Source of the DNA: Candidatus Poribacteria bacterium
GTDB lineage: Bacteria; Poribacteria; WGA-4E; WGA-3G
Direction of reading: 5' to 3'
Assembly (NCBI GenBank): GCA_022827625.1
Contig: JAJEIE010000031.1
Coordinates: 1 to 64,000, forward strand
DNA length: 64,000 nt
In this document: in pieces, positions 8,481-59,025 of the stretch
Numbering within the stretch: the stretch's first letter is position 1
Layout of the letters: each line of letters starts with the position of its first letter
The notes under the pieces: model-generated
Database searches by the model: none
What the model saw: the letters and a program-made list of their open reading frames with translations, nothing else
Told to the model about the DNA's origin: nothing
Program-made: the position numbers and the translations under genes

Positions 8481-9188
8481 CTACTCCACTTCACTTTTTC
8501 GGACATCAAAGATCCGTTTTGTGCGATCATAGTCTATGAGAATAACAGTATCTCCTTTGACAGGAGTATCTTCATCCAATTTGGCACGGCAGCTGACGGT
8601 TAATTCCGGCCCATCCGGCACCTGTACCCTTGCGGTTCCGAAAGTCGTTGTAATCTGTCCGCTAATGACGCGTCCCCTTAGACCGAGCAATTGTACATCC
8701 CTAATAGCTTTTTCACTCTCTGGTAACAATTTTGAAAGCGCGATGGAGATATATCGTGTTGCTAAGAAACTACAGAAAAACGCGATGACACACGATATCC
8801 AAACCCACTGCGGATTCTGCGGAACATTCAGTGCCGCGTTCGCAATCAGTCCAGTAATTCCCCACATCGCTAATAGCGACATAAGAACGACCATCAAGGG
8901 GACTCTACCGACGTTCAGAAACCCAAACACATCACCAAAAGACGGGCTCAGTTCTCCGGCATCTGCTTCTACGTCTGCGTCCATGTCTACGTCCGCATCT
9001 ATATCTACATCCGCGTCCACATCCACATCCACATCTGCGTCTATATCGGCGTCCGCGTCCACGTCGGCATCACCGAAGTCCATTGCCCCAATGAGAAGCC
9101 GAAAAAGCGCGAAGAGGAACACAATCGTCAGCGGTGCGGTAAACCAGACATTATATGAAACTATAAGATAATTCAAGAATTCTCCCAT
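8481..9188 (-). CDS. YqiJ-like membrane protein with OB-fold and Asp-alternating linker
   Basis: A 235-residue protein. One N-terminal membrane segment (about 18-34) is followed by a striking tract, residues 40-77, where Asp alternates with Val/Ala/Ile/Met. Two more membrane helices (about 92-110 and 125-150) lead to a C-terminal OB/NfeD-like domain (GLRGRVISGQITTTFGTARV, TPVKGDTVILIDYD). NfeD/YqiJ proteins partner flotillins, and the flotillin gene follows 42 bases downstream. The acidic tract may bind cations, but this is inference. GAGGGGT precedes the ATG. Confidence 0.85.
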   Translation of the reverse strand: MGEFLNYLIVSYNVWFTAPLTIVFLFALFRLLIGAMDFGDADVDADADIDADVDVDVDADVDIDADVDMDADVEADAGELSPSFGDVFGFLNVGRVPLMVVLMSLLAMWGITGLIANAALNVPQNPQWVWISCVIAFFCSFLATRYISIALSKLLPESEKAIRDVQLLGLRGRVISGQITTTFGTARVQVPDGPELTVSCRAKLDEDTPVKGDTVILIDYDRTKRIFDVRKSEVE

Positions 9189-15819: not shown

Positions 15820-15874
15820 TGGATTAATCCTCAGTTAGAATTTCTCTCATAAATGTTCGAGCTATGAATACCGA

Positions 15875-16004
15875 AGCCCTAATAGAGCGAAATGCGTATA
15901 GAACACCGAGCCCACCCCTGCCTTAAAGCCCCAGCGGGGCGAAATGTCTATAGAAAATACAATATCCCCACACCGTAAGCCCCAGCGGGGCGAAATGTGC
16001 ATAT
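15875..16004. repeat. Three copies of a GCCCC-AGC-GGGGC palindromic repeat
   Basis: Copies lie at 15924-15953 and 15976-16004 (51-base period). A degenerate copy lies at 15875-15901. Each contains a GCCCC/GGGGC stem followed by GAAATG and a TATAG-like tail. They fill the gap downstream of the STAND-like ATPase gene. Confidence 0.7.
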
Positions 16005-19000
16005 CTACCGAAAAACCTCATCAAGCCGCCAAACCAGCTTAAGCGCATCCGTCCAGCCCGTTTTAGCAAACATATCCAATAGATTCAGTAGGTCTTCCAA
16101 AGCCTTACCATCTTGCACCTCGTCCCGATGGTCAGCAAGGACAATTTCAACAAATTCAACGACATCTCGGACTGCAATAGCGTCAAGGTTATACTCAAAA
16201 GATTCACTTGATTTTACGACTCCCGCCGCTAAATGCAATACCTCTTTCGGATTGCAGCTCAGGAAACTTGTTAGGAGTTGCATGAAATAGTGTGCCGTTG
16301 GCGCGAACATCAATCCATGTTCTGAATTTTTTGCGAAATCAATAACCTGCTGCATCAACGGTTTGACTTCATTGTAAAATTGACTGCGCAACTCAATAGG
16401 TTTCTCAGATTGGTCTTTTTCAGGTGCCACCTCATAGTAAAGACACGTGATAACCCGGTCAATCACTTCATAGGTATCACGTAATTGTTTTGCTACTGCC
16501 TCAGTTTCATGCTTTTTGAGAGTTCTATATAACTCCCCAACCCTACCAGAAACCACATCAATCACTTCCTTTAACCAGTCAATACCTCGTTTTGCTATTT
16601 TACGTCCGGCATCCGTTTCAAAGTGCTTCAGACTGACATAATCCTTCGTAACCTGATTCACAGCACGGGTTAGAATGTTAGCGTACTGGATCGGATCTGT
16701 GAAAAAGGTGTTTTTGATTGTTTCCAATGCCCATGAATTTTCGCAGCCTATCGCCAATCCCATCAACAGATAACTAAATGGGTCAAACGAACCTGATTTT
16801 GCTGGCGGTAGCGGTGTATGCTGAAGTAACTTCGCCATAATGCGAGCAGTCTTATCTTCATTTTCTTTCGCCTTTCTGATGACTTGTGTCAACGTAAAGT
16901 AGAGATATTCTTGTACAATGTGAGTTCTTTCATGCCTTGCTCTATTGTTCACAATGTGCCAGAATTCTTCCGGTGCCTTGTCATAAACTTGGAACAACTC
17001 CATCGCCGTTACCATACGAACAGATGGTACAAGATCATTCGCAAGCGCCTCAATTGTGTCCAATATCTCCTTATCAGGTTGGTGAAACGCGAGTCTAAGT
17101 AGACCCCGAGCAGCTTCATGCCGTGGAAATGGAGAATAACCTGGACCATCAAATTGGTCATCGTAGAAGGGATTTGGTTTGGGCTGCTCGTGTTCTGCGC
17201 CCTCTAAAAGTACTTGTCTGCAAAAAATGAATGACTCACTCTCAAGATTATTAGCAATTCGAGCTATAATTGCTACACAATTGGTTAGATTTCGCCAAAG
17301 TAAATCGGTTACCCCTTGATCGGCTTCTGTATCGCTTTTTAGTTTAGTGCATACTTCCCGTAACTGCGGTAAAATCAATTTGGCAGCTTCCTGAGTCGGT
17401 GTATCATTTCGCCAATCAGAACTGAATTTATTGAGATTCGGAGAAAAACGTTGCAATCCTTGATTTTCAGGTGTAGTCGTATCAACGCCCTGTCTTTGAA
17501 GCCATTTTTCCTCAGTAACAGGTTCTGTCCAAGTTCTAAAAGTGACAGGAGGTTGATTCTCGGGAATATCGTTTTTACGCTCCATATCTTCTCGAATTTG
17601 CTTCGCTTCATCCGTTCGCAGCAAATTTATGGAGATTTGTGCCAGGAGCCGGTTTCTGCACATTTCAAGAGATTCACGATTATCTTCGGATCCGCTCGGG
17701 AGTCTTAAGATACTCTTTTCAATCTGAAGAAGTTGGTCTGACGTAAACTCAGATGCAGCGGCTTTTAAAAATAGGCCGAGTTCATAAGAGGTTTCAAAAT
17801 GTAATAGTACCGGTTTCGCAATACACAATTCAAATAGACGTGGCGCGAAAACTTTGGGAAATTGTGCAGCAGTTTTCAACAGCCGTTTCCAGAAAAATGC
17901 AACCCAAACTTCATCGCGGACAATATCAAGTAGTGAATCAAGGCGTGGATCTTCTGAGGCAGCCAATTCTGCAATAAATCCAAACAGCGTATCCGCCATT
18001 TCAATTGGCTCATCGGAGGACCGCTGTTCATCCCACATATAACTATTGTCTTGGACAAAATATGTGGATTTTCCACGAAAATCAAAAGTTTTCGTCAAAT
18101 TATCAACTGTTCCATTAATATAGAAACGAATAATGAAGAAATTTAAACTTTGAATTGCTGCTCGCGCAGCAGTTCGTGGTAACACCTGAAGAAAATTATC
18201 AAAATGGTTCACTAACCTATATTGACACATTCGATAGTCCTGATGACGAACAGTCGCCATAGGGAAGATAGGTCCACCTCGAATAACCTTCTCATCACTA
18301 TGCTCGTAACGGGCAAATACCGTACGATAAATCAAAACGACGAACTTCGGGTCGTACTTCCAAATTCTATCAACATGTTCGGTTAAGGATGACAGAAAGC
18401 CTATCGGAAAATTCTCTTCCTCCGTCAGCTGGAGAACTTTTTCAAGAAGCACTCGTGATTCTTCAACATTCGTATGATATGTCTTGGCAACAAGTGGCAC
18501 AACCCAATAACCACCCAGTCGATTATACCAATCGTTCTCATTCATTCCTCTCTCCTGCCACACCCATTCAAGGAACCGTCGGCCAATCCGTCCACATGCC
18601 TCTTCAACATTTGCATCCGTTGCTCGCTTAAGAATATCCGAAGTGAGGGTTGCCAAATCCCAAGCAAAGTTGGCGTGCAAGTATTCCGAAATCTGATCAA
18701 AAAATTCGCTCCAGAGAACGTCACGTTCAATTTGCAGTGTCCGAAGTGCTTGCAAAAGTCGTATTATTGCCTCGTTTGCAATATCCTCTCCACTCCGTAG
18801 TTTCTCTAAAAGCGGCTCGAATTGATTTATCTCACGAGCTTCACTTGCGATCGCACTTGTCGGAATCAAGCGCGCGACAAGGCGCAAATGTACAGATTGA
18901 TCGCTTGGGAAAATATGCCAAAAAGTTCTCCAGAAACTTTTAGAGTCATAATACCACAGACGGGTGAAAAAATAGGTGAGGCTCGGTCGGAGAAAAAGCG

Positions 19001-20012
19001 GACGCGACGGATCCTCGGTAACAAAACCTTCTAGGTGTTGAGGAGCATCATCAATGAGTAGAACGCTAATTGCATAATCAAAAAGAATGTTGTGAGAAAA
19101 AGCAATCTGCCCTCCACTAGAAGATACCTTTGTCAAGATTTCATCACTCAGGAGATCATTCCATGCCGCCTGTCTAACAGGTACATCAAGATTCAGTTCT
19201 TCATAAATTTTGTACTGTTTAATAGCCAATAAACGTTTCTCAACCATCCGTTTCGCGATTCCTTCAAGAACGAACCGACGGGTGTCGCCATTACTTCGAG
19301 CCTCAATTCGGCGTTCCCAAAAGAGACCGAGTAATTGAACTTCAGAACGCACTTGGCTAAAATCGGGCAGATCTGGTGAAGTTTTTAGAATTTTTTCTAA
19401 TAACCAGAGATTAAAGGGATTTGCAAGGATATTTTTAAAGTCCTGAGAACCGTCGTTATAGACAGATTGAGGGCATCCAATCTGATTTAAGGCTTGTAGA
19501 ATTTCGTCAGGATTGAGGATAGGAATTGTGAAATGGCGGCATGAGATGTCTTCGCTCTGATATTTGGTGTCACCAGGACTACCGAATAGCTCTAAGAGTT
19601 CTTGTGATTTCTTCGCGTCATAGGTACGGACTGTAACGACAACATTCCACTTCACGAGTTCGCGAATTGCACGTCCGATCAGATTTAGGAAGCGTTTACG
19701 CGTCTGCTCATCCCGGGCAGCATCAAAAGCATCAAAGAGTAAAATTGCGTTTTTGCCTGACACCGGGATAGATTTCAACTTTTCAATAAGATCGCCTTTG
19801 TAAGATAACTCTTGCTGTAAAGTTTTGGCGGTGCCATCTCCAAGTTGGTCAATCCGTAAAAGGAGATGTGGAACTTCGTTAGCCTTTAGGCGTTGGCGAA
19901 GTTGTTTCAGGACGTATGTTTTTCCAACACCCGGGCTGCCGATGATAACACCATCTCCCCGCGAGGCGAAATCTTGCAAGTCGTTCAATAGTTGCTTCCG
20001 CTCAATTTTCAT
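16005..20012 (-). CDS. STAND/NACHT-like P-loop ATPase with large helical C-terminus (putative defence protein)
   Basis: About 1335 residues. Walker A GSPGVGKT and Walker B ILLFDAFDA lie within the first 100 residues, followed by VTVRTYDA, a sensor-like arginine segment. Near residue 335 the motif FSHNILFDYAIS matches the winged-helix end of NACHT/STAND modules. About 1000 residues of helical, repeat-like sequence follow, with no effector recognised. STAND ATPases of bacterial defence sense phage proteins through such C-termini and switch on an attached effector. Here the effector would be the SIR2 protein, whose gene overlaps this start by 11 bases. I chose ATG 20012, with GAGGA upstream, over TTG 20018. 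An R-M gene lies in the same run. The defence role is inferred. Confidence 0.65.
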   Translation of the reverse strand: MKIERKQLLNDLQDFASRGDGVIIGSPGVGKTYVLKQLRQRLKANEVPHLLLRIDQLGDGTAKTLQQELSYKGDLIEKLKSIPVSGKNAILLFDAFDAARDEQTRKRFLNLIGRAIRELVKWNVVVTVRTYDAKKSQELLELFGSPGDTKYQSEDISCRHFTIPILNPDEILQALNQIGCPQSVYNDGSQDFKNILANPFNLWLLEKILKTSPDLPDFSQVRSEVQLLGLFWERRIEARSNGDTRRFVLEGIAKRMVEKRLLAIKQYKIYEELNLDVPVRQAAWNDLLSDEILTKVSSSGGQIAFSHNILFDYAISVLLIDDAPQHLEGFVTEDPSRPLFLRPSLTYFFTRLWYYDSKSFWRTFWHIFPSDQSVHLRLVARLIPTSAIASEAREINQFEPLLEKLRSGEDIANEAIIRLLQALRTLQIERDVLWSEFFDQISEYLHANFAWDLATLTSDILKRATDANVEEACGRIGRRFLEWVWQERGMNENDWYNRLGGYWVVPLVAKTYHTNVEESRVLLEKVLQLTEEENFPIGFLSSLTEHVDRIWKYDPKFVVLIYRTVFARYEHSDEKVIRGGPIFPMATVRHQDYRMCQYRLVNHFDNFLQVLPRTAARAAIQSLNFFIIRFYINGTVDNLTKTFDFRGKSTYFVQDNSYMWDEQRSSDEPIEMADTLFGFIAELAASEDPRLDSLLDIVRDEVWVAFFWKRLLKTAAQFPKVFAPRLFELCIAKPVLLHFETSYELGLFLKAAASEFTSDQLLQIEKSILRLPSGSEDNRESLEMCRNRLLAQISINLLRTDEAKQIREDMERKNDIPENQPPVTFRTWTEPVTEEKWLQRQGVDTTTPENQGLQRFSPNLNKFSSDWRNDTPTQEAAKLILPQLREVCTKLKSDTEADQGVTDLLWRNLTNCVAIIARIANNLESESFIFCRQVLLEGAEHEQPKPNPFYDDQFDGPGYSPFPRHEAARGLLRLAFHQPDKEILDTIEALANDLVPSVRMVTAMELFQVYDKAPEEFWHIVNNRARHERTHIVQEYLYFTLTQVIRKAKENEDKTARIMAKLLQHTPLPPAKSGSFDPFSYLLMGLAIGCENSWALETIKNTFFTDPIQYANILTRAVNQVTKDYVSLKHFETDAGRKIAKRGIDWLKEVIDVVSGRVGELYRTLKKHETEAVAKQLRDTYEVIDRVITCLYYEVAPEKDQSEKPIELRSQFYNEVKPLMQQVIDFAKNSEHGLMFAPTAHYFMQLLTSFLSCNPKEVLHLAAGVVKSSESFEYNLDAIAVRDVVEFVEIVLADHRDEVQDGKALEDLLNLLDMFAKTGWTDALKLVWRLDEVFR

Positions 20013-21039
20013 CGTCAATTCCTCGTTCCATACGTTGATTCACTTCTTCCAACCAATCCACTTGATCCGCTGTCGGTTGACTTCTAATTGTACACGCTTC
20101 GTGAATCTCATCAACGATTTGCTCTAAACCTTGATGTGAGTTGTCAGGGTCCTCATAAAATACAGTGCCAACGCCATATTCATTGTTAAGTCTTTTAGAT
20201 TTGTCTTTGGAATCCTCAGCATCTTTGAGGGAGATACTCATAATTGCAAAATGAGTGGATTTATTCCATGTCCATAAATCTTCACTGACAGTCTCTAATA
20301 TCTTGTTGAGATAAGGATCGTCCATGCTAAAACCAACAAAAACGACTCTACGGGTTGCTAAAACCGCCCATAGCAGCCTGAAACGAAGTCTCGATTTGTT
20401 TTTTTCATCATCTTCGGCAGCTGGATCAAGACCATAAGCACGCTTGTAGTCTTCAATACTTAGAATTATACTGTCTGCTGGGTTAAATGTCCCATGTAAA
20501 TGTGCGATGCGGCGAGTCATTCTTTTATCATTATTCATTGCCATTAGGAATTCATGAACTCGTGCGCCGGAATTCTCGTCAATAACCAATGAATTATCAG
20601 ATGCAGACTCTTGGTCTATTGCACCTAATGCAGCTTCAAGCACAGTATCATAATTCGTTGTCAAAATTCCTCTAAAAGGTAATGAGACGAGCATCTTGTG
20701 AAAATCATCACATGGAGGAGATTTCCGCTCAAATAATCTATAAAGAAAATCATGATATCTACGCAGATTACTTGTTTTATCACGAATGTGTGATTTGATG
20801 TCTTCCGCGTATGCTAATGCATCGCCGCTCCGCGTTTGATCAAGACCGGTGCCACATCTATTGGCTAAATTCTTCAATTCCTCCAGAAGCCCATCCCAAG
20901 TCACATAACCTACACGTGCACTACTTCCAGCACCAACTATGAGTACGGATTCTCCTGAAGCAACAAAGTCAATCAACTCACGCTTTCGCTCCTCATTTTC
21001 GTCTCGTTCCTCAGGTGTAAAAATTTCTGGATTGTTCAT
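20002..21039 (-). CDS. SIR2-family protein (putative NADase effector)
   Basis: 345 residues from ATG 21039. The SIR2 Rossmann motifs are intact: GAGSS (36-40) for NAD binding, TTNYD (127-131), the HLHG catalytic His at about 182, and VFVGFSMDDPY (about 234-243). No zinc-binding CxxC pairs are present, as in defence SIR2 proteins that hydrolyse NAD rather than deacetylate. The C-terminal 100 residues look helical and may contact the partner. The stop codon overlaps the start of the STAND-like ATPase, so the two are probably made in fixed ratio. An upstream TTG extension to 21153 is less likely. Abortive-infection activity is inferred from family knowledge. Confidence 0.8.
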   Translation of the reverse strand: MNNPEIFTPEERDENEERKRELIDFVASGESVLIVGAGSSARVGYVTWDGLLEELKNLANRCGTGLDQTRSGDALAYAEDIKSHIRDKTSNLRRYHDFLYRLFERKSPPCDDFHKMLVSLPFRGILTTNYDTVLEAALGAIDQESASDNSLVIDENSGARVHEFLMAMNNDKRMTRRIAHLHGTFNPADSIILSIEDYKRAYGLDPAAEDDEKNKSRLRFRLLWAVLATRRVVFVGFSMDDPYLNKILETVSEDLWTWNKSTHFAIMSISLKDAEDSKDKSKRLNNEYGVGTVFYEDPDNSHQGLEQIVDEIHEACTIRSQPTADQVDWLEEVNQRMERGIDDEN

Positions 21040-21186
21040 GCAAAAAATTAGGGGTTTGTCCAATTTCAAATTGTAACTTACCCACAATAGACCCTCCCAA
21101 CTTCCCGTTGCTGTCTTCGTTAAAATAGTAGCACATTTAACTCGGAAAATCAAGATGAAGATAAATATGCTACCCTTATGATCTGA

Positions 21187-21218
21187 TTACGGCACACGGA
21201 GTGTGCCTACTACTTTAA
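21187..21218 (-). repeat. Stop-codon palindromic repeat, copy 1
   Basis: On the minus strand AAAGTAGTAGGCACAC supplies the last Lys codon and TAG stop of the R-M gene. A GGCACAC/GTGTGCC stem and GTAA follow. It is related to copies at 25037, 37255, 39050 and 40774. Confidence 0.75.
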
Positions 21219-24200
21219 GGCAGGCAACCCTTCAACAACCGCCACCGTCTCCAAACTCACCGTAACCACCTTCCCAATCAACCGAACAATATACTGCGGA
21301 TCGTCCGTACGGTTCGGGTCGTTAACAATACCACTTCGTTTGTCCCTCTTGAGGCGATACTGATCCACGACCCACTCCAACGCCGAACGCGTGCCAAGTC
21401 GGTAGTCAAAGACTTGTGGCGGAATGCCATCAATCGTGAGGAATTTGTTGTAGACAATTTGCGTTTTGTCTCTGGAAAGTTTCATCTTTTCCACGCGCCA
21501 ATCAAGTGGGACCTCAGGATTCTGAATGAACTTGAGTTTATTGTATTCAGGTTGGGATTCGTAGTTAACGTGGATTTCCGCGAGCCGTTCGCCTGCCTTT
21601 GCGAATCCCCAGAAATCTTGAATATAGGGGATATGCGGCAGATCGCGTTTGAGGTTCGCTTCATATTTCTCGCGATAGTTGGGATGATGCAAGAGTCCAT
21701 AGGTGTAATGAAAGATGTCCCACTTGGTGATGGTGTCGTCGTTATAATGCGTTCGGAAGTGTGTCAATGCCCAATCTGTGATGTTTTCTCGGCGGTTCGT
21801 CCCGTCTTCATCGTAAGTGTAGAAAGGGAAACATTGAAAGCGATCGCGTGCCGCAAGTATGTGAGAATCAGGAATTAGATTCGCCATCAAGGTATTGAAA
21901 TCTGCCCGGAAGCCGTGGTCGCTGACAATTATCACTCGATTTTCGGTTTCGCTCTGAAGGTTAGGGAAGATAGACGGACAAACGTATACTCGTTCTGTCA
22001 GCATTCTGTCAAAGTAAAGATTTGATTTGGTAAACGGACGATAGATAGATGCCCTCATCTTTTGATGCGAAAAATCAACAGTTCTCCCTCTTTGCAAATT
22101 TCGTTTGAGTCCTTCACTCCACTTGATTTTATCATCATCAGAAACAACAAAATCATCAACATTTACATCTTGATCTGTCAGATGCTGCCACTTGAGCATC
22201 TGCGAATTGTAGGTACTAATCATGCGGCTCATATTTTCAGCGAGTGTACCCGGATTAAAGTTGTAAGCCCAGGCATCACGACTTGTGTTAACACCTGCCC
22301 CATAGATTTTGAAAATTACGCCTTCTACCTCACCTTTTATCGCTTTGGCTTCCTTAGTCCCCATCGGTATAAAAGTGTCAAACTCAGGATGAAGCCCTTC
22401 AGTAAGCCACGTATGTCGTCCATCGGGTTGAATGTTTTGCCACGGAATAGTTCCGACGTGTTGGCAATCATCAAGAAAGTCAAATTTCTGCTTTCTGTTC
22501 CATAGGTCATCAGTGCGATAGTAAAAGATACGTGTGGATTCTGATAGGTTCTGTCTGTTTTTTACAAACAGATTGATGCTAACGCCGACACGTATTCCAA
22601 ATACATTCGCATCGGAGACTTTTAAGCCTTTCCGTGCATTCCCACCTAAGTCGAAAATATAAATCGCGTCAAAGTCTTCCGTGAGGTGCTTCCGCATGCC
22701 ATCAAATGCCACGCCATCCAGAAAACCGTTGTTTGTCACAAACGCAACAACGCCTTCATCTCCAATACGATCCGATGCCCACCGAATCGCCTTCACATAA
22801 GGATCCGAGAGTGCGTTTTTATTCGTTGCCTTTGAATCTTGCGAATACGTTTCTCGGACTCGCGCATCCATCGTCTCATACTTCCGATTCTTGTTGTTGT
22901 CGTTCTCATTGACCTGCCCCGCATTATAGGGTGGATTGCCGATAACCACAAACATCGGAGTCTCTTTTTGTTTTTCGACGCGCTCGGTATTCGCTGGCGT
23001 GAATAGCTGCATCTGCCGTTCTTCTGCCATCTCAAACGTGTCTACCAGACAGATACCTTGATAGGGAGCATACCGATGCGTTGCAGTGTAAAACTGCTGT
23101 TCGATATTCAGGTTGGCGATATAATAGGGCAGGAGCATCACTTCGTTACACTGGAGTTCAGGCGGATCCGCCGTATATTTCCGCTCTAACGAAATCGGAT
23201 CCAGCTCCTGCATAAGACGGACGATGAAGTTGCCGGTCCCCACAAATGGATCAATAATATGGACACCAGCATCCGAGAGGGAACGGTTAAATTCGGTCTG
23301 CAAAATATGCGCAACGCTTTTCACCATGAAATTCACAATCGGCTGCGGTGTATAGACGATGCCGTGTGTATCCGCTACCTTGATGGAGAAGCCTTGAAAG
23401 AATTGCTCATAAACAGTATTGAGGAATCCCTGTTTTTGTGAGAAATCGGTAATCGTACTGGCAGTTGTCTCAATCGCAGCGTAGAACGGCTCCAAGGGAC
23501 GAAGAAATTCTGATCGGTTCAACGTCCGCTCAGTAAGCACATCAATGACGTTTTCAATTTCACGAGCGATAATATTTCGGCGGGTAAAATCAGGATTATC
23601 AAAAACAGTGCGGAAGATGCGCTCTGTCAACAGATGCTGGATAAGCATCTCCTCTACGGCAGCAATAGAGAGGTTCGGATTAATGGAGACTTGGCACTGC
23701 TGATGAAAACGGGTGAACGCCTCATGAAAATGTGGACTGTTTTGGCGTTCCGTTTCAATTAACGCTGCCAATTTTTCGCCGAGTTCCGGCACCGTCTCTC
23801 TGAATTCAGAAACTGCCGCATGCCACGCCGTGATGTTCTCTTCCTGATAGGCGAAGAAGGTCTGGAGAACGTGGACAAGGTTTCTCGGCTCAGTGATGTC
23901 AAGGTCAAGTTGGAGCTGCCCGTGTTGATAGAGGAGGGCGTGGGTTGGCGATTGGATAACGATGTTTTTCGAGGGATAGCCTGCAGCGAACTTCTTGTCC
24001 GCTTCAACGTATAGGTCGTCCCGTGTATCTTTCGCTTCCCAATAACCGTGTGGTAAACCGTAGGTATCGACGACTTCACCATCAGGCGTTATTCGTCTTC
24101 TCTCCGGCGTGTAGTGTGTCTTTTCACAGAGGAGAGTGAGGTCGGATTTGTGGCAGTAGTGCTGGAGGAGGTTTTGGAATGCGGCGCGGACAGTGCCTTC

Positions 24201-24290
24201 ATTTTCCGCACCGTGTTGTGCATATTTTTTCAGTTCAGCGTAATATGTTTTGATGGGTTTGTGCGTCGGTTTGATGTTGGTATCTGGCAT
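21210..24290 (-). CDS. Type ISP-like restriction-modification enzyme without helicase domain
   Basis: 1026 residues. An N-terminal PD-(D/E)XK-like nuclease carries Asp75 and WEAKD (Glu85, Lys87). A helical coupler leads to an N6-adenine methyltransferase with motif X VYTPQPIV (about 312), motif I DPFVGTGNF (347-355) and motif IV NPPY (452-455). The C-terminal third should be target recognition (type ISP C-terminal domain). Classical type ISP enzymes are about 1500 residues with a translocase between nuclease and methyltransferase. That part is missing here, so the layout is closer to type IIG. It has its own promoter and precedes the SIR2/STAND pair. The recognition site cannot be read. Confidence 0.85.
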   Translation of the reverse strand: MPDTNIKPTHKPIKTYYAELKKYAQHGAENEGTVRAAFQNLLQHYCHKSDLTLLCEKTHYTPERRRITPDGEVVDTYGLPHGYWEAKDTRDDLYVEADKKFAAGYPSKNIVIQSPTHALLYQHGQLQLDLDITEPRNLVHVLQTFFAYQEENITAWHAAVSEFRETVPELGEKLAALIETERQNSPHFHEAFTRFHQQCQVSINPNLSIAAVEEMLIQHLLTERIFRTVFDNPDFTRRNIIAREIENVIDVLTERTLNRSEFLRPLEPFYAAIETTASTITDFSQKQGFLNTVYEQFFQGFSIKVADTHGIVYTPQPIVNFMVKSVAHILQTEFNRSLSDAGVHIIDPFVGTGNFIVRLMQELDPISLERKYTADPPELQCNEVMLLPYYIANLNIEQQFYTATHRYAPYQGICLVDTFEMAEERQMQLFTPANTERVEKQKETPMFVVIGNPPYNAGQVNENDNNKNRKYETMDARVRETYSQDSKATNKNALSDPYVKAIRWASDRIGDEGVVAFVTNNGFLDGVAFDGMRKHLTEDFDAIYIFDLGGNARKGLKVSDANVFGIRVGVSINLFVKNRQNLSESTRIFYYRTDDLWNRKQKFDFLDDCQHVGTIPWQNIQPDGRHTWLTEGLHPEFDTFIPMGTKEAKAIKGEVEGVIFKIYGAGVNTSRDAWAYNFNPGTLAENMSRMISTYNSQMLKWQHLTDQDVNVDDFVVSDDDKIKWSEGLKRNLQRGRTVDFSHQKMRASIYRPFTKSNLYFDRMLTERVYVCPSIFPNLQSETENRVIIVSDHGFRADFNTLMANLIPDSHILAARDRFQCFPFYTYDEDGTNRRENITDWALTHFRTHYNDDTITKWDIFHYTYGLLHHPNYREKYEANLKRDLPHIPYIQDFWGFAKAGERLAEIHVNYESQPEYNKLKFIQNPEVPLDWRVEKMKLSRDKTQIVYNKFLTIDGIPPQVFDYRLGTRSALEWVVDQYRLKRDKRSGIVNDPNRTDDPQYIVRLIGKVVTVSLETVAVVEGLPALK

Positions 24291-24715: not shown

Positions 24716-25039
24716 ATGCTTTCACAAGAATACATAGAAAAATGTCAACACCCCCAAATTCAGGCACTTCGACCTGACTCAGAAAACTCGAAAGGCTTGT
24801 GGATACCAACCGCTGAACAACTTCAGCAACTCTTAACTCAGAAACTCCCCTATCCAGACCGGTCGGTTTTACGCCGTACCGCAGACGGATGGGAATATCA
24901 AACTTATTTTCGTGAGTGGGCAGCCGATTACGGCACTTATATTGATACACACCGCCAGTTTACTGGCACTGATACCGAAAGTGTGCTTTTACAAGTATTA
25001 ATGGCTTTTCTCGGTATCAGTGAACGATGGATGGTATAA
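24716..25039 (+). CDS. Unknown 107-residue protein
   Basis: A soluble protein with no recognised domain. It contains LWIPTAEQLQQLLTQKL, WEYQTYFREWAADYGTYIDTH and a C-terminal TESVLLQVLMAFL helix. It stands behind a perfect-consensus promoter, so it is probably well expressed, although no Shine-Dalgarno is visible. Its TAA stop begins a palindromic repeat, after which the ASRT-domain gene follows in the same direction. The two may form an operon. The function is unknown. Confidence 0.55.
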   Translation: MLSQEYIEKCQHPQIQALRPDSENSKGLWIPTAEQLQQLLTQKLPYPDRSVLRRTADGWEYQTYFREWAADYGTYIDTHRQFTGTDTESVLLQVLMAFLGISERWMV

Positions 25040-25067
25040 GCAGTAGGCGCACACCGTTGTGCCGTAA
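25037..25067 (+). repeat. Stop-codon palindromic repeat, copy 2
   Basis: It begins with the TAA stop of the preceding gene and continues GCAGTAGGCGCACACCGTTG, a variant of the family, in the direction of transcription. Confidence 0.7.
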
Positions 25068-25082
25068 CGTAAAAGGAATACG

Positions 25083-36195: not shown

Positions 36196-37257
36196 ATGAG
36201 CGACACCAAATATCGTGTAGCCATCATCGGCTGCGGACGGATGGGCCAAAACTACGCAGAGGCATACACCACCTATCCCGACACAGAGATTGTCGCGATC
36301 GCCGATGCCAATGCAGAACGGCGAGAGGTCCTCGGCACGCGCTTCAATGTTGCCGCACTCTACCCAGATGTAGAAACCCTATTGGCAAACAACGTACCCG
36401 ACATCGCCGTTGTCGTTACACCCACGAAATACATGAAAGATGCCGTCCTCGCCTGTACTGAAGCGGGTGTTAAAGGCATCTCCACGGAAAAACCGATTGC
36501 CGCACGTCTCGAAGATGCCGATGCAATGGTCGAAGCGTGCACTGAACGCGGCGTGGTCTTTGCTGGTGGGAACTTGCAACGCGCAATGAATGAAGTCCAA
36601 GAAGCAGCCGCTCGGCTCCATAGTGGCGAATTCGGGGACATTCGCGGCGCAAGCGTTCACGGATTCGGCGGCGAAATCTCCGGTGGCGGATGCCAACATA
36701 TCTCCATCCTGCGCTTGTTCACCAACGCCGAAGTTGAAGAAGTCATCGCGTGGGGATCACCGACAGAAGCCCTGAACGCAGAAACCGACGAAGGCTTAAT
36801 CATCAACGGACGCTTCCAACTTACCAATGGACTCGAATGCAGCGTCTTCGGAACACCAACACCCTGTCGCGGCGTAGATGTCTGGACAGGCGAATGCCTT
36901 GTCCGTTGGGATTGGAACCCGCCTGAGATTTTCAAAGGCTACGACCCGCACGGCAATCGTATCCGGTGTGAACCCAACTATAGTCCGTACCCGTGGAGCG
37001 AATTTAACTATCTCACCGGTTCAATCCGCTCCTTTCTGGCTGCCGTTAATGGCGAGGGACAGCCATGGATTACCGGGGCGGACCTCCGACAGGCACTGGA
37101 AGTCGCAATCGCCGCAAAACGCTCCGCGACCCGAAACAGTGTTCCCATCAAACTCCCATTAGAGGATAGATCTTTAGCACTTTACCCGCGTCCCTACCGA
37201 TGGCTCGGCGGCGACGTAACCGGTAGACCTCAAAGTATCGAAGAAGCAACAGGCTAA
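36196..37257 (+). CDS. Gfo/Idh/MocA family oxidoreductase (1)
   Basis: 353 residues. The N-terminal Rossmann motif is VAIIGCGRMGQNYAEAY, and the family catalytic segment STEKPIAARLEDADAM contains the EKP lysine. A C-terminal substrate domain follows (GGEISGGGCQHISIL). Such enzymes oxidise sugars, inositols or sugar acids with NAD(P). The gene opens a plus-strand cluster with PhyH and sulfatase-like genes behind a good promoter, so it probably takes part in breakdown of a modified sugar or related metabolite. The stop codon is part of a palindromic repeat. Confidence 0.9.
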   Translation: MSDTKYRVAIIGCGRMGQNYAEAYTTYPDTEIVAIADANAERREVLGTRFNVAALYPDVETLLANNVPDIAVVVTPTKYMKDAVLACTEAGVKGISTEKPIAARLEDADAMVEACTERGVVFAGGNLQRAMNEVQEAAARLHSGEFGDIRGASVHGFGGEISGGGCQHISILRLFTNAEVEEVIAWGSPTEALNAETDEGLIINGRFQLTNGLECSVFGTPTPCRGVDVWTGECLVRWDWNPPEIFKGYDPHGNRIRCEPNYSPYPWSEFNYLTGSIRSFLAAVNGEGQPWITGADLRQALEVAIAAKRSATRNSVPIKLPLEDRSLALYPRPYRWLGGDVTGRPQSIEEATG

Positions 37258-37286
37258 AGTAGTAGGCATACGCCGTGTGCCGTAAC
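37255..37286 (+). repeat. Stop-codon palindromic repeat, copy 3
   Basis: It starts at the TAA stop of the oxidoreductase gene and reads TAAAGTAGTAGGCATACGCC, then GTGTGCCGTAAC. It lies between this stop and the ribosome site (CAGGAG) of the next gene. Confidence 0.8.
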
Positions 37287-38104: not shown

Positions 38105-39052
38105 ATGTCAAAACTACGAGTTGCTGTCATTGGTTGCGGTGGTAGAGGCCGCGGACACATGAAAATCCTTTCAGAATTTGACGACACAACGCTCGTCGCT
38201 GTCTGCGATCCGATTGAAGGGGCGCGGAACAATGCCGGCGATATGTTCAACATCTCGGCACGCTACGAGAGCATCGAAGCATTGTTAGATGGTGAAACCT
38301 TAGACGCTATCTTCGTTGCCACCCCTGCACACCTCAACGGCGAGGCGGCACTCCCGTGTTTTGAACGCGGTGTCCATACACTCTTAGAAAAACCGCCGGG
38401 GATGAGCGTTGCAGAAACGGTCGGATTGCGCGACGCAGCGGCACGGACAGGGGCAAAAGGAATGGTCGGCTGGAACCGTCGTTTCCATCCCATTATCGTT
38501 GAAGCCAAACGGCACGTCACCGCGCGGGGACCCGTCACCCAAATCGTTGGGGAATTCCATAAGAGCATCACGCAATTAGCAAAAGGCGGCAGATTCCCTG
38601 AACACCTGATGGACAATATGTTTCTGGAGACCCCCATTCACGCCCTCGATGCCATCCGCGCTATCGCTGAAGCCGATGTTCAAGAAGTCCATAGCGTCGT
38701 CCGCCGGACAATCTCCGACTACAAGGATGTCCACGCCGCGCTCATCCTCTTCGACAACGGGTGTGTTGCCCAACATATCGCCAATTATACCACCAATGCA
38801 CGCCTCGAACGCTACGAGATTCACGGTAGAGACATCTCTGCCTATCTTGAAGGGGTCTCGCAAGGCACTGTTTTTGCCGATGGTAGCCAACACAAACTCA
38901 CGAACGCAGGCAACGGCGGTACCACTGAGCAAAACAGGTATTTCCTCAATTGCGTCAAGTCCAATACGCCTGTCTCGTTCCCAGCTGCGAACCTCGATGA
39001 GGCTGTTAAAACCATGGAACTCTGCGAAGCAATCCTCAGTGGGCTGTGCTAA
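38105..39052 (+). CDS. Gfo/Idh/MocA family oxidoreductase (2)
   Basis: 315 residues. Rossmann motif VAVIGCGGRGRGHMKIL and catalytic LLEKPPGMSVAE are present, followed by GWNRRFHPI and a C-terminal domain. It is shorter than the other two family members in the window. AGAGG lies before the ATG, 15 bases after the preceding PhyH gene. Co-transcription with the flanking PhyH genes suggests that oxidised sugar intermediates are processed in the same pathway. The exact substrate is unknown. Confidence 0.9.
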   Translation: MSKLRVAVIGCGGRGRGHMKILSEFDDTTLVAVCDPIEGARNNAGDMFNISARYESIEALLDGETLDAIFVATPAHLNGEAALPCFERGVHTLLEKPPGMSVAETVGLRDAAARTGAKGMVGWNRRFHPIIVEAKRHVTARGPVTQIVGEFHKSITQLAKGGRFPEHLMDNMFLETPIHALDAIRAIAEADVQEVHSVVRRTISDYKDVHAALILFDNGCVAQHIANYTTNARLERYEIHGRDISAYLEGVSQGTVFADGSQHKLTNAGNGGTTEQNRYFLNCVKSNTPVSFPAANLDEAVKTMELCEAILSGLC

Positions 39053-39081
39053 AGTAGTAGGCACACACCGTGTGCCGTAAC
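39050..39081 (+). repeat. Stop-codon palindromic repeat, copy 4 (best copy)
   Basis: It starts at the TAA stop: TAAAGTAGTA, then GGCACAC-ACC-GTGTGCC (39060-39076), then GTAAC. It is the cleanest palindrome of the five copies. Confidence 0.85.
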
Positions 39082-40675: not shown

Positions 40676-40722
40676 CGCAGTACTCCATCAACTCTCAAAC
40701 AGACCACTATATTCTTGTAAGA

Positions 40723-40737
40723 GCGAGTTTTACTCGC
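40723..40737. repeat. Short palindrome GCGAGT-TTT-ACTCGC
   Basis: A perfect 6-bp stem with a TTT loop lies in the gap between the PhyH and sulfatase-like genes. It is embedded in TTGTAAGA on the left and GATC on the right, and looks like another dispersed palindrome type. Confidence 0.5.
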
Positions 40738-40773: not shown

Positions 40774-40800
40774 ATAATAGGCACGCGCCGTCGTGCCGTC
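40774..40800 (+). repeat. Stop-codon-type palindromic repeat, copy 5 (variant)
   Basis: AATAATAGGCACGCGCCG followed by TCGTGCCGTC resembles the other four copies, but it is not joined to a stop codon. It lies upstream of the sulfatase-like gene in the direction of transcription. Confidence 0.6.
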
Positions 40801-40827
40801 CACCTGTAAACCACTGGAGAACTATAA

Positions 40828-42282
40828 ATGAACATCGCCTACATCGTCATCGACACACTCCGCTACGACTACATCGGCGCGAACGGAAACGATTGGATAG
40901 AGACACCGAACATCGATCGGTTCGCCGCTAAAGCCTTAGCATTCGACTACGCTTTCTGTGCCAGTTTCCCGACAATTCCGTACCGAACAGATGTCATCAC
41001 GGGTCAATACGGCGCGCCGATCCACCCGTGGAAACCGCTCCGTCACGAACGCCAAACGCTGCCGTGGACGCTCGCAGAAAACGGCTACGCCACGCAACTT
41101 ATTCACGATACACCGCATCTCGTCAACGGTGGACATAATTTCGACTGGCCCTTCCACGCCTGGACATTCGTTCGCGGCGCAGAAGTTGATAGAGACTGGA
41201 TTACCGACACCGTCGTATGGCCCGACAACTGGACCCGCCAGCCGCTCTTTGATTGTATCGACGACAAAGCCGCTGAATCCGGCATGCTCCGCAGCTACGC
41301 GCGCGCCAACCGAAACCGCAAAAAACCGGAAGATTGGAATTGCGCGAGACTTTTCAACACCGCCGCGCAATTCCTCAAAGATAACGCCAAACGAGACAAC
41401 TTCTTCCTCTGGGTAGACTGCTTTGACCCTCATGAGCCTTGGGACGCACCCCTTGAATTCATGAAAAAATACGATACCCGTCCCGGCTACGACGGTCGTG
41501 TAGATCCACGCAGTCTCGGTGCACGCGGTAACGCCCAGCTCTCAGATGAGGCGAAACAACACATCAAAGCGCAATACGCCGCGAAAACGACATGGATGGA
41601 CCACTGCTTCGGACAATTCCTCGACGCACTCGAATCCACAGGACTTGACAAGAATACTGCTGTCATCTTTACCGCTGACCACGGCACAAATGTCGGTGAG
41701 CGCGGTAGATTTGGCAAAGGACAACCCGTACGCCAGCAGGAGACACACGTCCCCCTCTTTATCCGACTCCCGGAAGGGGATACGGGCAGAAGCAACGTTA
41801 TTGTGCAACCCCAAGATTTCTTCCCAACGATCCTCAATATCTTAGGGGAGGCACGTCCTGACGGTATCGAAGGACACGACATCGTAACGCCTGCGCGCAA
41901 TGGAGAATCTGGTGATAGGGAACTCGCACTTTCAGGCGGAAGTATTGAACGGTGGGAGAACGCCACACAAAATCCGAACATCAATCTGTTCACTATCTTC
42001 ACCCGCGAGTGGAGCTTAGAGGTCGGAATAACCCCTGAAAATTCAAAACTCGTCCGACTCGATGAATTAGACGACGTTTCGAGTGAGCATCCGGATGTCG
42101 TTGCGAAACTCCACGCCGCTGCTATCGATGAAATCGAACGCCGCGGCACGGATCCGTCATTGATGAAATGGCTCCGTAGCGGTGGTGAAGCCGATTTTCC
42201 CACTGATGCCACTTATTGGAACGGCTACCCTGGTCCCGCAGGCTACCGCCCTTACTTCGGAAAACTCTACACGGGTGAGTGA
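40828..42282 (+). CDS. Sulfatase-fold hydrolase with Thr at the formylglycine position
   Basis: 484 residues of the alkaline phosphatase/sulfatase superfamily. The metal site starts at IVIDTLRYDYIG (Asp9, Thr10), TPNIDRFA follows, and FTADHGTNVGERGRFGKG supplies Asp/His near residue 283. The sulfatase signature C/S-x-P-x-R-x4-T-G reads Thr49-Ile-Pro-Tyr-Arg-Thr-Asp-Val-Ile-Thr-Gly59. The residue normally converted to formylglycine is therefore Thr. Thr nucleophiles are used by phosphodiesterases and phosphonate hydrolases in this superfamily. No signal peptide is seen, so it is probably cytosolic. CTGGAG precedes the ATG. Confidence 0.85.
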   Translation: MNIAYIVIDTLRYDYIGANGNDWIETPNIDRFAAKALAFDYAFCASFPTIPYRTDVITGQYGAPIHPWKPLRHERQTLPWTLAENGYATQLIHDTPHLVNGGHNFDWPFHAWTFVRGAEVDRDWITDTVVWPDNWTRQPLFDCIDDKAAESGMLRSYARANRNRKKPEDWNCARLFNTAAQFLKDNAKRDNFFLWVDCFDPHEPWDAPLEFMKKYDTRPGYDGRVDPRSLGARGNAQLSDEAKQHIKAQYAAKTTWMDHCFGQFLDALESTGLDKNTAVIFTADHGTNVGERGRFGKGQPVRQQETHVPLFIRLPEGDTGRSNVIVQPQDFFPTILNILGEARPDGIEGHDIVTPARNGESGDRELALSGGSIERWENATQNPNINLFTIFTREWSLEVGITPENSKLVRLDELDDVSSEHPDVVAKLHAAAIDEIERRGTDPSLMKWLRSGGEADFPTDATYWNGYPGPAGYRPYFGKLYTGE

Positions 42283-53253: not shown

Positions 53254-56200
53254 ATGACAGAAGAGTCAATTCACGTTCAAGGGGCACGAGAACACAACCT
53301 AAGAAACATCGATATCCAACTCCCGAAAGATAAGCTCATCGTCTTCACGGGCGTTAGCGGTTCCGGCAAATCTTCACTGGCAATCGATACCGTCTACGCC
53401 GAGGGACAACGACGATATATAGAGTCTTTATCTGCCTACGCACGGCAATTTCTGGGGCAGCTCGGAAAGCCGGACGTAGATGAGATTATCGGCTTATCCC
53501 CGTCTATCGCTATCAGTCAGGGTTCAACGGGGCATAACCCGCGCTCCACAGTCGCCACCGTAACCGAGATTTACGACTACCTGCGGGTTTTTTATGCGCG
53601 CGTCGGACAATTCCGCTGTCCCGAATGTGGAAGCGAAGTCGGTTCACAAACCGCCTCAGATATTATCGAAACACTGGTTAACTACCCGCAACGCACAAGG
53701 CTTATCATTTTAGCACCGATCTTCAGAGGTTCCCGCGGCGCGCATGAAAAGGAAATTGAGGACCTACGAAACGCAGGGTTCGCTCGGTTACGCGTTGATG
53801 GCGAAATACACGAACTGCGTCCGGGTTTCGCCCTTAGCCGTAATCAGCGTCACGATATTGACCTTGTTATTGACAGGATTATCATTAAAGACGGAATTGA
53901 ACCTCGCGTCAGCCAAGCCGTAAACACCGCGCTTTTGCGTGGAGACGGAAATATGCTCGTCCAAATCGTTCCGATTGAAGGCGGAAACTCGCCCTTCATG
54001 TCAGAAGAGGATGACCTACTCTTTAGTGAGGATTACACCTGCTCACACTGTCGGATTAGCTTCGTGAAGCCCGAACCCCGCCACTTCTCTTTCAACAATC
54101 CTGATGGCATGTGCGAAGATTGCAGCGGGTTAGGCACACAGATGGGGATTTTACCAAAATTAATTATCGCCGACGATACACTCTCCATCATGAAAGGCGC
54201 CATCAGTCTGTGGGGACCCCTCAACAAGCGAGAGCGGACCACAGAAATATCCATAATGGAAGCACTCGCGAAACATCTCAAATTCGACATAACAACACCG
54301 TGGAAGGATCTCACGCCAGAGCAACAGCACGCTGTCCTCTACGGCACCGGTGACGACATTCTTACCATCACCACACCCCGAACAGATACACACAAGAAAC
54401 GGAAACAACGACGGCGCTACCGGGCGCGCTTTCACGGTATCATCACAGCCGAAGAACAGAAATATCGCTTCGACAACGATACTGAAACCGACGCAGATGA
54501 TTTTCCCGATTACTTTGTGAAGATGCCTTGTAGAACATGTGAAGGCACCCGACTTAACGCGTGGATCAAAGCCATAACGATAAATGATACACCCATCACG
54601 GATATCCTTGAAATGTCTATCCAGAGTGCCACCGAATTCTTCAACACATTGGCACTCCCAGAACGCGAGGCATTTATTGCGGAAGAACTTCTAAAGGAGA
54701 TTCGTGGACGGCTCGGTTTCCTTATGGATGTCGGACTGGGATATTTGACGCTCGCACGCGCTGCCCCGACGCTCTCCGGTGGTGAAGCACAGCGCATCCG
54801 ACTTGCCAGTCAAGTAGGCGCAGGGTTACGCGATGTCACCTATGTTCTCGACGAACCGAGCATCGGCTTACACCCGCGCGATCATGCCGGACTTCTCACA
54901 ACGCTCCTCAATTTGCGGAATCAGGGGAACACCGTCATCGTCGTTGAACACGACGAGGCAACCATGCTCGTAGCCGACTGGATCGTCGATTTCGGACCCG
55001 GAGCAGGCATCAAGGGTGGAAAAGTGACGGATATGGGAACACCCACGCAATTCGTAAAAGAGAGCAACACACTCACCGCTCAATACCTCCGAGGCGACAA
55101 AGTGATCGTCCAACCCGAATCACGCCGTCCGACAGGCGATAAATGGGTACAAGTTTGCAATGCACGCCAAAATAATCTCAAAGGCATCAACCCGAAAATA
55201 CCGATCGGTACCCTCTGCTGTGTGACAGGTGTCAGCGGTTCTGGAAAGAGTTCCTTAATCCACGATATTCTTTACAATGCCCTCGCCCGCGATCTGATGA
55301 AGGCAAAGACTGTCCCAGGCGCGTACGATACAATTCAAGGGGTCGTCAAAGACAAAAATCTGCCGGTCTCCGATGTTATTGACAAAATTATTAACATCAA
55401 CATGGCACCCATCGGACGGACACCGCGTTCTAATGCCGCAACCTATACAAAGGTCTTTGATGCCATTCGGTCCCTCTACGCCGGTTTGCCCGACGCAAAA
55501 CTGCGAGGCTACAAACCCGGACGGTTCAGTTTCAATGTCAGCGGCGGCAGATGTGAAGCCTGCAACGGCAACGGTGCGAAAAAAGTTGATATGGGACTCC
55601 TCTCTGATGTCTGGGTCGAGTGCGAGGTCTGCGAGGGAAAACGTTTCAACAGTGAAACGCTTGCTATTAAATATAAGGGGAAAAATATTGCTGAAGTCCT
55701 TGAGATGGACATTGACACCGCACTTACACATTTCGCCGATATTCCACGGGTCGCAAGAGGATTACAACTTCTTCACGATGTCGGTCTGGACTACATTAAA
55801 CTCGGACAACCCGCCCCCACGCTTTCCGGTGGCGAGGCACAGCGCATTAAACTCTCAAGGGAACTCTCTAAACGCGGGACGGGAAAGACGCTTTATATCC
55901 TCGATGAACCTACAACCGGATTGCATTTTGACGACGTAAATAAACTCTTGACGATCCTTCATCGACTTGTAGACGATGGCAATACCGTTGTCGTCGTAGA
56001 GCATAACCTTGAGGTTATCAACTCCGCAGATTACATTATCGACTTAGGACCAGAAGGAGGCGTGGGTGGCGGTGCTATCGTTGCCGTAGGTACGCCTGAA
56101 GAAATCACCGAGATACCCGAATCTTACACCGGACAAGCACTTCGCGGTGATTTTGACATTTGGCGCGAGGCAAAGCAACGGCTCATGGAACCCGAACTTG

Positions 56201-59025
56201 CACACGCCTTTGGACAGGCACAAGAAACCCAAACAGCAATCGCAGTACAAGGTGCCACGGAAAACAATCTCAAAAACATTGACATCGATATTCCACATCG
56301 AAAAATGACGGCATTGACCGGGGTCAGCGGCTCTGGAAAGACCTCTCTCGCCCTTGATACGATTTATGCGGAGGGGCAACGTCGCTATATTGAAACGCTC
56401 AGCACCTATGCCCGCCAGTTTATAGGGCAGATGGAAAAGCCGAAAGTCTCAAAAATTGAGGGACTCTCACCCGCCATTGCAATCTCACACGCAAACGCAG
56501 GTCAAAATCCGCGCTCAACGGTAGCAACAATCACGGAAATACACGACGGACTCCGTACCCTTTATGCCAGATGGGGCAAACCCTACTGTCCCGATTGCCT
56601 TGAGATCGTCCGTCCACAGACCGCCGAAGAGATAACAGATAGGATATTTGAACTTGTCCGTGAACAGCGGGTCGATGTCCTCGCACCGCTCACAAACTTT
56701 ATGCTTGTTCCCAGCAGCGAAACAGGTGCATTAAGAGGCAAAATCATCGACATCAATGCCAATGAATCCGCTTACGGTATAAAGGGACATGAAGAATACG
56801 CCGATGTCTTCCGACGACTGCAAAGAGCAGGATTCGTCCGTGTCCAAATTGATGGAGAGATACACCGACTCGACGAAGCACCGACATTGAGTCGCGGCAT
56901 TCGCCACGAAATCTCTATTGTTATTGACCGCGTCGAGCTTGTTGATGAAGAAAAGAGCCGCTTTATGGAAGCGATCGAGCTGGCACTACTTCAGAGCGGG
57001 GGGTTCGTGCTGATTGAGGAAAGCCGCCGTGGAAAAACATCAACCCGACACTTCTTCAGTGAACACGCGATGTGTCCCGCTTGCGGAAACAACTTCGGAC
57101 AACTGACACCACGACACTTCTCCTTTAACAACAAAATAGGGGCGTGCGATTTCTGCGATGGACGCGGACGGAACATACACCCACCCTACGATGCCTGTAA
57201 CCAATGCCACGGCACACGCTTGAAACCTTTCCCAAGCAGCGTCAAGTTCGAGGAGATGACCGTTGCTGAACTGATGGCGTTGTCGATTGACGAAATCATT
57301 GAATTCTTCAAGGTACGCCTGAAACAGATTGAAGCGACAATCGCTTTTAATGATGCGGAAGCCAGTCGCAGCGATCTTCTGGTCACAACAGGGGTCTCAA
57401 CCTCAAGAGCCACGCACCCGGCACTTCACGTGCATACTTCACCTGAGTTTGAAGCCGAAGTCCTGAGCCAAATCCAGATCCGACTCCAATTTCTCGAAGA
57501 CATCGGTCTCGGTTATCTCGCACTCGACCGCGGTGCCCCTACGCTTTCTGGGGGTGAAATGCGTAGAATCCAACTCGCAAGTCAACTCGGTAGCGGTCTC
57601 ACAGGTGTAACCTATATCCTTGATGAACCGAGCATCGGATTACACCCGCGCGATCAAGAACGCCTTATCTCCGCGCTCAAGGAACTCCGCAATATCGGGA
57701 ACAGCGTTCTCGTTGTTGAACACGACCGAGACACGATATTAGCCGCTGACCATGTGATTGACTTCGGGCCCCAAGCGGGCAAAGGTGGTGGCGAAATTAT
57801 TGCTGTCGGCACACCCGATACCTTCACCAAAGGTGATTCCGCTGTAGAAGCGATCTCCGAATCGCGACCTGTTGATGGACCCGCATCCGCTAAATCCTTG
57901 ACGCGCGCCTATCTCTCCAACGAAGTAGAAATCCGGGTGCCAGAAACCCGGCGCAAAGGCACAGGCAAAAAATTGGCAATATACGGAGTAAAAACAAACA
58001 ACCTCAAAGACATTGATGTTAAAATTCCATTCGGAACCCTTACATGTGTAACCGGGGTCTCAGGATGCGGAAAGAGTTCACTCGTTGAAGGCACACTCAA
58101 ACCAGCGCTCGAAAGCCGTAGCGCAATCAGAACAGGTGAACCGAAAGATCGTCGCTACGGCTACTACATGGCGGATGGTCACCGAGAACCGATCTATAAC
58201 GACTACGGTTTGCCGGAGTATGAGAGCATCCGAGGGGTTAGCCATATCAAGCGTCTCATCAATGTAGACCAGAAAGCGATTGGTGAGACCCCGCGCTCCA
58301 ATCCTGCCACCTATACCGATCTGTTCACGAAAATTCGCGAACTCTTTGCCGAACAACACGACGCAAAGATGCGCGGATTCACCAGAGGCTCCTTCAGTTT
58401 CAATCTCTCCGCTGGGCAGTGTCCCGTCTGCGAGGGACATCGTTTTAACCGCGTCGAAATGCACTTCCTCCCTGATGTATGGATGCCGTGCGAGGCGTGT
58501 AATAGCACAGGCTACAGTCCCGATACGCTTGAGGTTCGTTATAATGGGAAAAATATCGCTGAAGTCTTGGATATGACGGTAGATGAGGCGCTCGCGTTCT
58601 TCAGTGAAAACTCGCGGATCTGTCGGACGCTCCAGATGTTGACAGATGTCGGATTAGGCTACATCCAATTAGGGCAATCGGCAACGACGCTCTCTGGGGG
58701 TGAGGCACAGCGCGTTAAACTTGCGAAAGAGCTGGCGCGTCGCCAAACGGGTTCAACGCTCTATATCATGGACGAACCCACGACAGGCCTCCACTTTGAC
58801 GACATCCAGAAACTCCTCAAAGTGCTGAACCGACTCGTAGATGCCGGTAATACGATTATCGCCATCGAACACAACATCGACGTTATCAAATCCGCAGACT
58901 GGATCATTGACCTCGGCCCAGAGGGCAGCAAAGGCGGCGGCGAAGTCGTGGCGATGGGCACGCCAGAGAAGGTGGCGAAGGTTCAAGAATCCCACACTGC
59001 TCGCTTCCTACGCGAGGTTCTGTAG
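53254..59025 (+). CDS. uvrA: Tandem (double-length) excinuclease ABC subunit A
   Basis: 1923 residues, twice the usual 940, made of two complete UvrA units joined near residue 990. Each unit has two ABC ATPase heads; Walker A motifs start near residues 33, 658, 1022 and 1600 (the last is GVSGCGKSS). Signature loops are [36 protein letters not shown] and [11 protein letters not shown]. Zinc-finger CxxC pairs occur in both units (CEAC/CEVC and CPVC/CEAC). UvrA dimers find DNA damage; here one chain may act as a built-in dimer. Similar double UvrA proteins are known in Chlamydiae and Planctomycetes. Confidence 0.93.

Follow-up and report, generated by a model that had tools for sequence, protein, structure and literature searches.

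A GTAG-tagged repetitive extragenic palindrome of Poribacteria, its cognate RAYT transposase and its placement on stop codons

REPs of E. coli reportedly stabilize mRNA, an effect attributed to Newbury et al. 1987, and REPINs, in the definition ascribed to Bertels and Rainey 2011, are said to be inverted pairs of REPs. Di Nocera, De Gregorio and Rocco (2013, PMC3733652) describe GTAG REPs as palindromes of 20–40 bp with GTAG at the 5′ foot, which are dispersed, mostly intergenic, located near the 3′ ends of upstream ORFs, and found in the PVC superphylum. In REPtrons, known from E. coli, Stenotrophomonas, and Marinomonas, a single-domain HUH/Y1 transposase is bordered by its own REPs (PMC8266576; PDB 4er8), and GTAG is the recognition or guide motif (PMC8266576). 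A relation to stop codons has been described for E. coli: according to the section of PMC12306157 on Liang, Rudd and Deutscher 2015 (PMID 25891074, cited also through PMC8049555), a REP at a distance below 16 nt from a stop codon down-regulates translation, and for 260 of 496 REPs the distance downstream of the stop is at most 15 nt.

The window analyzed here, a stretch of 64,000 nt, is contig C19 of a 5.02-Mb genome (G000, 95% complete) of the same genus as the Poribacteria chromosome OY282374.1. It contains five copies of a palindrome of about 31 bp, AAAGTAGTAGGCAYACNCCGTRTGCCGTAAC. Their shared layout is AAAGTAGTAGG-CACAC-NCC-GTGTG-CCGTAAC, that is, a doubled GTAG tag, a stem of 6–7 bp, a three-base loop, and CGTAAC. 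All five had been listed in a first-pass annotation and were recovered, the fifth spanning 40774–40806. The annotation was also right that four of them begin at or within the stop codon of the upstream gene; the fifth is divergent and not fused to a stop. Its statement that the stem is followed by GTAAC is exact for three copies, but the minus-strand copy has GTAAT and the fifth GTCCA. The copies in the window are single.

The minus-strand copy (21187–21218) supplies the stop codon of the gene for a type ISP/IIG restriction-modification enzyme (21210–24290, minus strand), which stops on the TAG (21212–21210) inside ...TTAAAGTAGTAGG of the element. In congeners whose site is empty, the gene stops at the corresponding codon (L378) or two to three codons away. 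The remaining copies are on the plus strand. A stem variant with a one-base bulge (GGCGCACACCGTTGTGCC), at 25037–25068, is located directly 3′ of the TAA of a small plus-strand gene without a Pfam family (24797–25039, 80 aa), where the TAA is followed by GCAGTAGG; it is missing in 8 of 8 congeners, which have the stop at the same codon. Two plus-strand genes for GFO/IDH/MocA oxidoreductases (GFO_IDH_MocA), at 36196–37257 and 38105–39052, carry copies fused to their TAA (37255–37286 and 39050–39081, respectively), with AGTAGTAGG directly 3′ of the stops at 37255–37257 and 39050–39052. The former copy is separated by 14 nt from the start codon (ATG) of the next gene and is found in most congeners, with stems that vary but still pair; it is absent in L292 and L297. 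For the latter gene, congeners without the REP have TAA or TGA at the same codon. The divergent copy (AATAATAGGCACGCGCCGTCGTGCCGTCCAC; 27 bits and E 0.04 with the covariance model) is 98 nt past the stop at 40675 and about 22 nt ahead of a sulfatase gene (40828–42282). A further hairpin, GAGCGAGTTTTACTCGC, is present at 40721–40737 (plus strand), about 35 bases ahead of this copy.

Several other features of the window were recorded. The restriction enzyme gene adjoins a region (16005–21153, minus strand) that looks like a split or two-gene defense system: a SIR2-domain protein (20002–21153, minus strand) overlaps a 1337-aa protein that matches the candidate defense family PDC-M54A (profile 300–1657). 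Between two genes, at 15874–16003, three copies of AAGCCCCAGCGGGGCGAAATGT with a spacing of about 51 nt represent another palindromic repeat family. A degenerate short tandem repeat with steps of 12 nt (8961–9070) is contained in the gene at 8481–9188 (minus strand), where it encodes a low-complexity protein stretch. An ORF of 1923 aa (53254–59025, plus strand) has four matched stretches to UvrA models, far over the NCBIfam cut-off, and looks like two UvrA proteins fused in tandem.

Comparison of copies retrieved by a pattern scan revealed how constrained the element is. GTAGTAG precedes the stem and is invariant in 130 copies; this includes the GT before AGTAGG, although it lies outside the selecting pattern. 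AAA is common 5′ of GTAGTAG, and conservation ends past CGTAAC. The RNA was folded in silico, and a hairpin was predicted with a stem that begins about 7 nt after the first GTAG; the hairpin of fused copies is therefore within 15 nt of the stop. This distance of at most 15 nt applies to 4 of 5 copies in the window and to 13 of 26 intergenic copies genome-wide. When the inner stem was left free in the search, C-G, T-A, and G-C pairs were found at its positions in nearly all of 116 elements. Very few were unpaired, and the arms change together (CAC/GTG, CAT/ATG, CACGC/GCGTG). Every forward frame of the repeat contains a stop codon, whereas no reverse frame does. Fused copies therefore do no harm to the upstream protein, and a clean deletion of them is difficult. 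The GTAG is unpaired and located at the 5′ foot of a palindrome that is short and imperfect, and the sequence is dispersed, multi-copy, and mainly extragenic (4 of 30 copies are inside genes); these features identify the repeat as a repetitive extragenic palindrome (REP) of the GTAG-tagged type.

In the window's own genome, a pattern search yielded 16 copies at up to 3 mismatches (reversed-pattern control: 0), and a covariance model yielded 38 matches at E≤1. The copy number is about 35 in this genome and 206 in one Pirellulales genome, compared with more than 100 for classical GTAG REPs. Of 85 Poribacteria genomes, 64 have copies, with numbers per genome between a handful and 155, and control matches were zero. 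In an exact-pattern scan of GTDB contigs, all matches among those listed were from Candidatus Poribacteria or Planctomycetes (Pirellulales, Planctomycetaceae). A near-identical element, matching almost letter for letter, is found in two phyla. The Pirellulales and Planctomycetaceae copies often form inverted pairs, whereas those of Poribacteria are mostly single or direct tandem repeats.

The repeat adjoins the genes of one RAYT/TnpA-REP subfamily in 11 genomes. At 9 of 9 Poribacteria loci the RAYT is accompanied by co-oriented copies, at eight of them on both sides, and in the two Pirellulales genomes (G003, G011) it is adjoined by inverted pairs. A Y1/HUH transposase gene bordered by a single REP family, the arrangement of a REPtron, is thus present. 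Of 20 more distant RAYT loci, none carries the repeat, and many carry other GTAG hairpins. The cognate RAYT (OY282374.1:708688-709326) has 213 aa and an extended N-terminus. It scores over the cut-off of Pfam PF01797 (Y1_Tnp), matches NCBIfam NF047646 (REP_Tyr_transpos) with 5.9e-16 and 58.7 bits, which is below the curated cut-off of 80, and has a weak match to TnpA-REP (PDB 4er8). In the window's genome, at 95% completeness, a search for the cognate RAYT gave no match, and the copies of this genome therefore look like relics.

The Y1_Tnp genes of the window's genome were rejected as drivers of the repeat, as two are IS200-like and the third is a RAYT (on contig C7) inside a different REP family. 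The latter, the only RAYT of the genome, sits in tandem arrays of GTAGTAGNGCRATTCATYGCNCGT (G000:C7:153430-154900; L137, L180-L190), a sister family (B) with about 225 copies in this genome. In the sister family 0 of 52 copies are fused to stops, which shows that the GTAGTAG repeats of this genome do not generally fuse to stops. A Y1 gene near one copy of the repeat (L127/L236) is of an unrelated RAYT type with a single copy and was not counted.

The association with a transposase bears on the question whether the hairpins have nothing to do with mobile elements and are instead intrinsic terminators or a regulatory RNA motif. The hairpins are indeed 3′ of genes and co-oriented in the window. 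However, the stem is followed by GTAAC and not by a T-run, the next genes begin 14–50 nt on in the same direction, and an Rfam search of the window returned tmRNA and tRNA families only. In addition, some copies are intragenic, and others are arrayed in tandem around RAYT genes. We regard this reading as extremely improbable, and the RAYT association refutes it. The first-pass annotation had recognized the placement at stops, but it had missed both the GTAG REP identity of the repeat and its cognate RAYT transposase.

To quantify the placement, genes were called with a simple home-made dicodon ORF scorer, and copies were defined as fused when the distance of the GTAG from the end of an upstream co-directional stop was between −9 and +6 nt. 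Expectations were calculated for uniform placement and random orientation in the same intergenic spaces. In the window's genome, 12 of 26 intergenic copies are fused to a stop, compared with 2.95 expected (P<5e-5). The other Poribacteria loci gave 22 of 80 compared with 2.48, and genome G032 alone gave 6 of 21 compared with 0.17. In contrast, fusion is nearly absent in G031 (0 of 33), G040 (1 of 19), and Planctomycetes (1 of 20); some genomes appear under two labels (G095/G001, G021/G002, G040/G008), so that these sets are not all independent. The genome-wide count proposed in the first-pass annotation therefore bears out a placement at stops far above chance in this genus, but also shows that it depends on the lineage: it is strong in this genus and one other family, whereas two other genomes and Planctomycetes show next to none. 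This shows that the element does not need a stop codon, and it argues against a fixed target specificity. Fusion occurs solely at the GTAG end, with 40 cases at the 5′ end and 0 at the 3′ end.

The claim that the repeat is always oriented with transcription holds for 5 of 5 copies in the window, but not for the genome: of 30 copies, 8 point the GTAG end at a gene start and 2 are antisense inside genes. About half of the copies are not fused, and these have no orientation bias. At same-strand junctions, the non-fused Poribacteria copies numbered about 20 co-directional versus 17, and those of G032 6 versus 6. Co-orientation with transcription is thus a property of the fused class only.

How the elements came to lie on stops was addressed by comparing the 3′ ends of the orthologs of 14 stop-fused genes across congeners. 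Several copies contain the TAG or TAA stop within the element (the offset of the GTAG from the end of the stop is −1 or −4; for example, the gene at 21210), as would be expected if insertion truncated a gene near its 3′ end and supplied a new stop. Yet in nearly all of the 14 genes, the stop of orthologs that lack the element is at the same codon or one to three codons away. A filled site GAA TAG|TAGTAGGCAC... corresponds to an empty GAA TAG CGGAAAGG, CGT TAG|AAAGTAGCAGG... to CGG TAA CGACG, and GGTA TAA|GCAGTAGG... to GGTC TAAAAGGAAG. The repeat is thus placed on pre-existing stops, as read from the aligned gene ends, and the elements did not truncate the genes. The ortholog ends largely refute the creation of stops by insertion, which we consider very improbable.

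Native stops might instead have been preferred by the inserting machinery, that is, by a transposase, or through single-stranded DNA exposed in transcription or replication, with a preference for targets resembling gene 3′ ends, e.g., TA[A/G] followed by A/G-rich sequence. Where an empty ortholog is available (L156, L163, L166, L155), the left junction and the final base of the native stop are 0–5 nt apart; the GTAG end alone is ever fused, and AT-rich 5′ flanks (TTAAAA/ATTAAA) are frequent. The latter are frequent in non-fused copies, too, and a stop-specific target motif, sought by comparing the 5′ flanks of fused and non-fused copies, was not found. The similarity of the flanks counts against stop-directed insertion. 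Furthermore, G031 and G040, which have many near-identical, arrayed, and thus recent-looking copies, barely show fusion. We therefore judge directed insertion as the main cause to be unlikely.

The congeners also revealed the fate of the copies. Many are old and common to congeners. At the dapF-dapA junction (gene names read off the sequence), the element or a remnant is present in 8 of 9 congeners, and two of the eight have an unrelated stem (GGAAAACCCA...TGGGTTTCC). Decay, deletion, or conversion into a non-folding hybrid has affected the hairpin at several stops (L293, L318, L319, L322), and any function is therefore dispensable. In L318 and L319 the palindrome is precisely missing at one gene end, and the bordering AAGTAGCAG...CCGAAGC has been kept. 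Hybrids at congener gene ends (L379, L382, L322, L333, L336) have the 5′ arm GGCACAC joined to the 3′ arm of another REP (GGGTTCTCC), and the hairpin is unpaired, which points to the central CACnCCGTG as a site of recombination between REP families. In one congener ortholog (L388), the stop is occupied by a GTAGGGGCGAGGTTTCCTCGTCC hairpin, which is another GTAG repeat. In four congeners, 18 of 53 fused sites and 8 of 39 non-fused sites are occupied (p=0.17; sites and genomes not independent). When one ambiguous site, which is stop-fused in orthologs, was dropped, the numbers were 18 of 53 and 4 of 35 (p=0.02). A longer persistence of fused copies in congeners is suggestive only.

These data could be accounted for by neutral survivorship: insertions elsewhere in compact operons would be purged, whereas a copy that follows or supplies a stop would be tolerated and could not be cleanly deleted, and no regulatory role would be involved. 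We rate this as possible, but short of probable. The stop codons in three forward frames and none in reverse, the somewhat longer apparent life of fused sites, and the loss of the folding hairpin from some orthologous copies with retention of the gene are all in agreement with it. Neutral survivorship alone, however, does not account for the absence of 3′ ends abutting a convergent stop or for the alternative pairing stems at fused sites (dapF-dapA junction, L348, L350).

The explanation that we consider probable is a GTAG REP with a cognate RAYT, of which the stop-fused copies stem mainly from biased retention, possibly with some insertion bias. The RAYT, an HUH/Y1 transposase, would recognize the GTAG tag and the hairpin and would spread the latter as a non-autonomous hairpin of single-stranded DNA. 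Its predicted substrate is single-stranded GTAGTAGGCACAC...CGTAAC, and mobilization would proceed by single-strand cleavage and integration, as deduced from the known biochemistry of TnpA-REP (PMC8266576). Preferentially retained would be those copies that set a hairpin of 6–7 bp at most 15 nt past a stop, between genes of one transcript. By analogy, ribosomes terminating at the stop might be paused or tuned down by the hairpin, and/or the upstream mRNA might have its 3′ end protected or defined by it. The presence of a tmRNA gene, found in the Rfam search of the window, is in agreement with this explanation. Stop-proximal copies, if they act at all, probably modulate termination, translation, or mRNA 3′ ends, as in the analogous case of the E. 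coli REPs. A more far-reaching proposal is that REPs were mobilized to, or retained precisely on, native stops and were co-opted as a lineage-wide termination or 3′-end signal in operons, e.g., at dapF-dapA, with stems being exchanged between REP families while the hairpin was kept; this we hold to be rather unlikely.

Compared with the GTAG REPs of PMC3733652, the present repeat has the same tag position, palindrome, dispersal, and intergenic bias, but differs in the doubled tag (GTAGTAG), in the CGTAAC that follows, and in being common to two phyla. As far as the main text of that source is concerned, Poribacteria and the present sequence are not named. Like the transposases of REPtrons, the cognate RAYT is a single-domain HUH/Y1 protein bordered by its own REPs; its length of 213 aa, extended N-terminus, and score below the curated NCBIfam cut-off set it apart from them. 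The Pirellulales copies resemble REPINs as inverted pairs that flank RAYTs, whereas the mostly single or directly repeated Poribacteria copies do not. With the stop-proximal REPs of E. coli, as characterized in the cited accounts, the fused copies have in common a hairpin at most 15 nt past the stop; they differ in overlapping or abutting the stop, always by the GTAG end.

The results extend the GTAG-REP/RAYT system to Poribacteria. What is of interest here is the clean empty sites at stop codons and the occurrence in two phyla, where almost identical repeats accompany a single RAYT subfamily; the latter suggests either horizontal spread or unusual conservation. The filled and empty sites of congeners provide a rare comparative data set of REPs exactly on pre-existing stops, with which placement by the transposase, maintenance by selection, and mere tolerance can be directly tested against each other. 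Taken together, the repeat and its RAYT are a genuine addition to the GTAG-REP/RAYT kind and not a separate kind.
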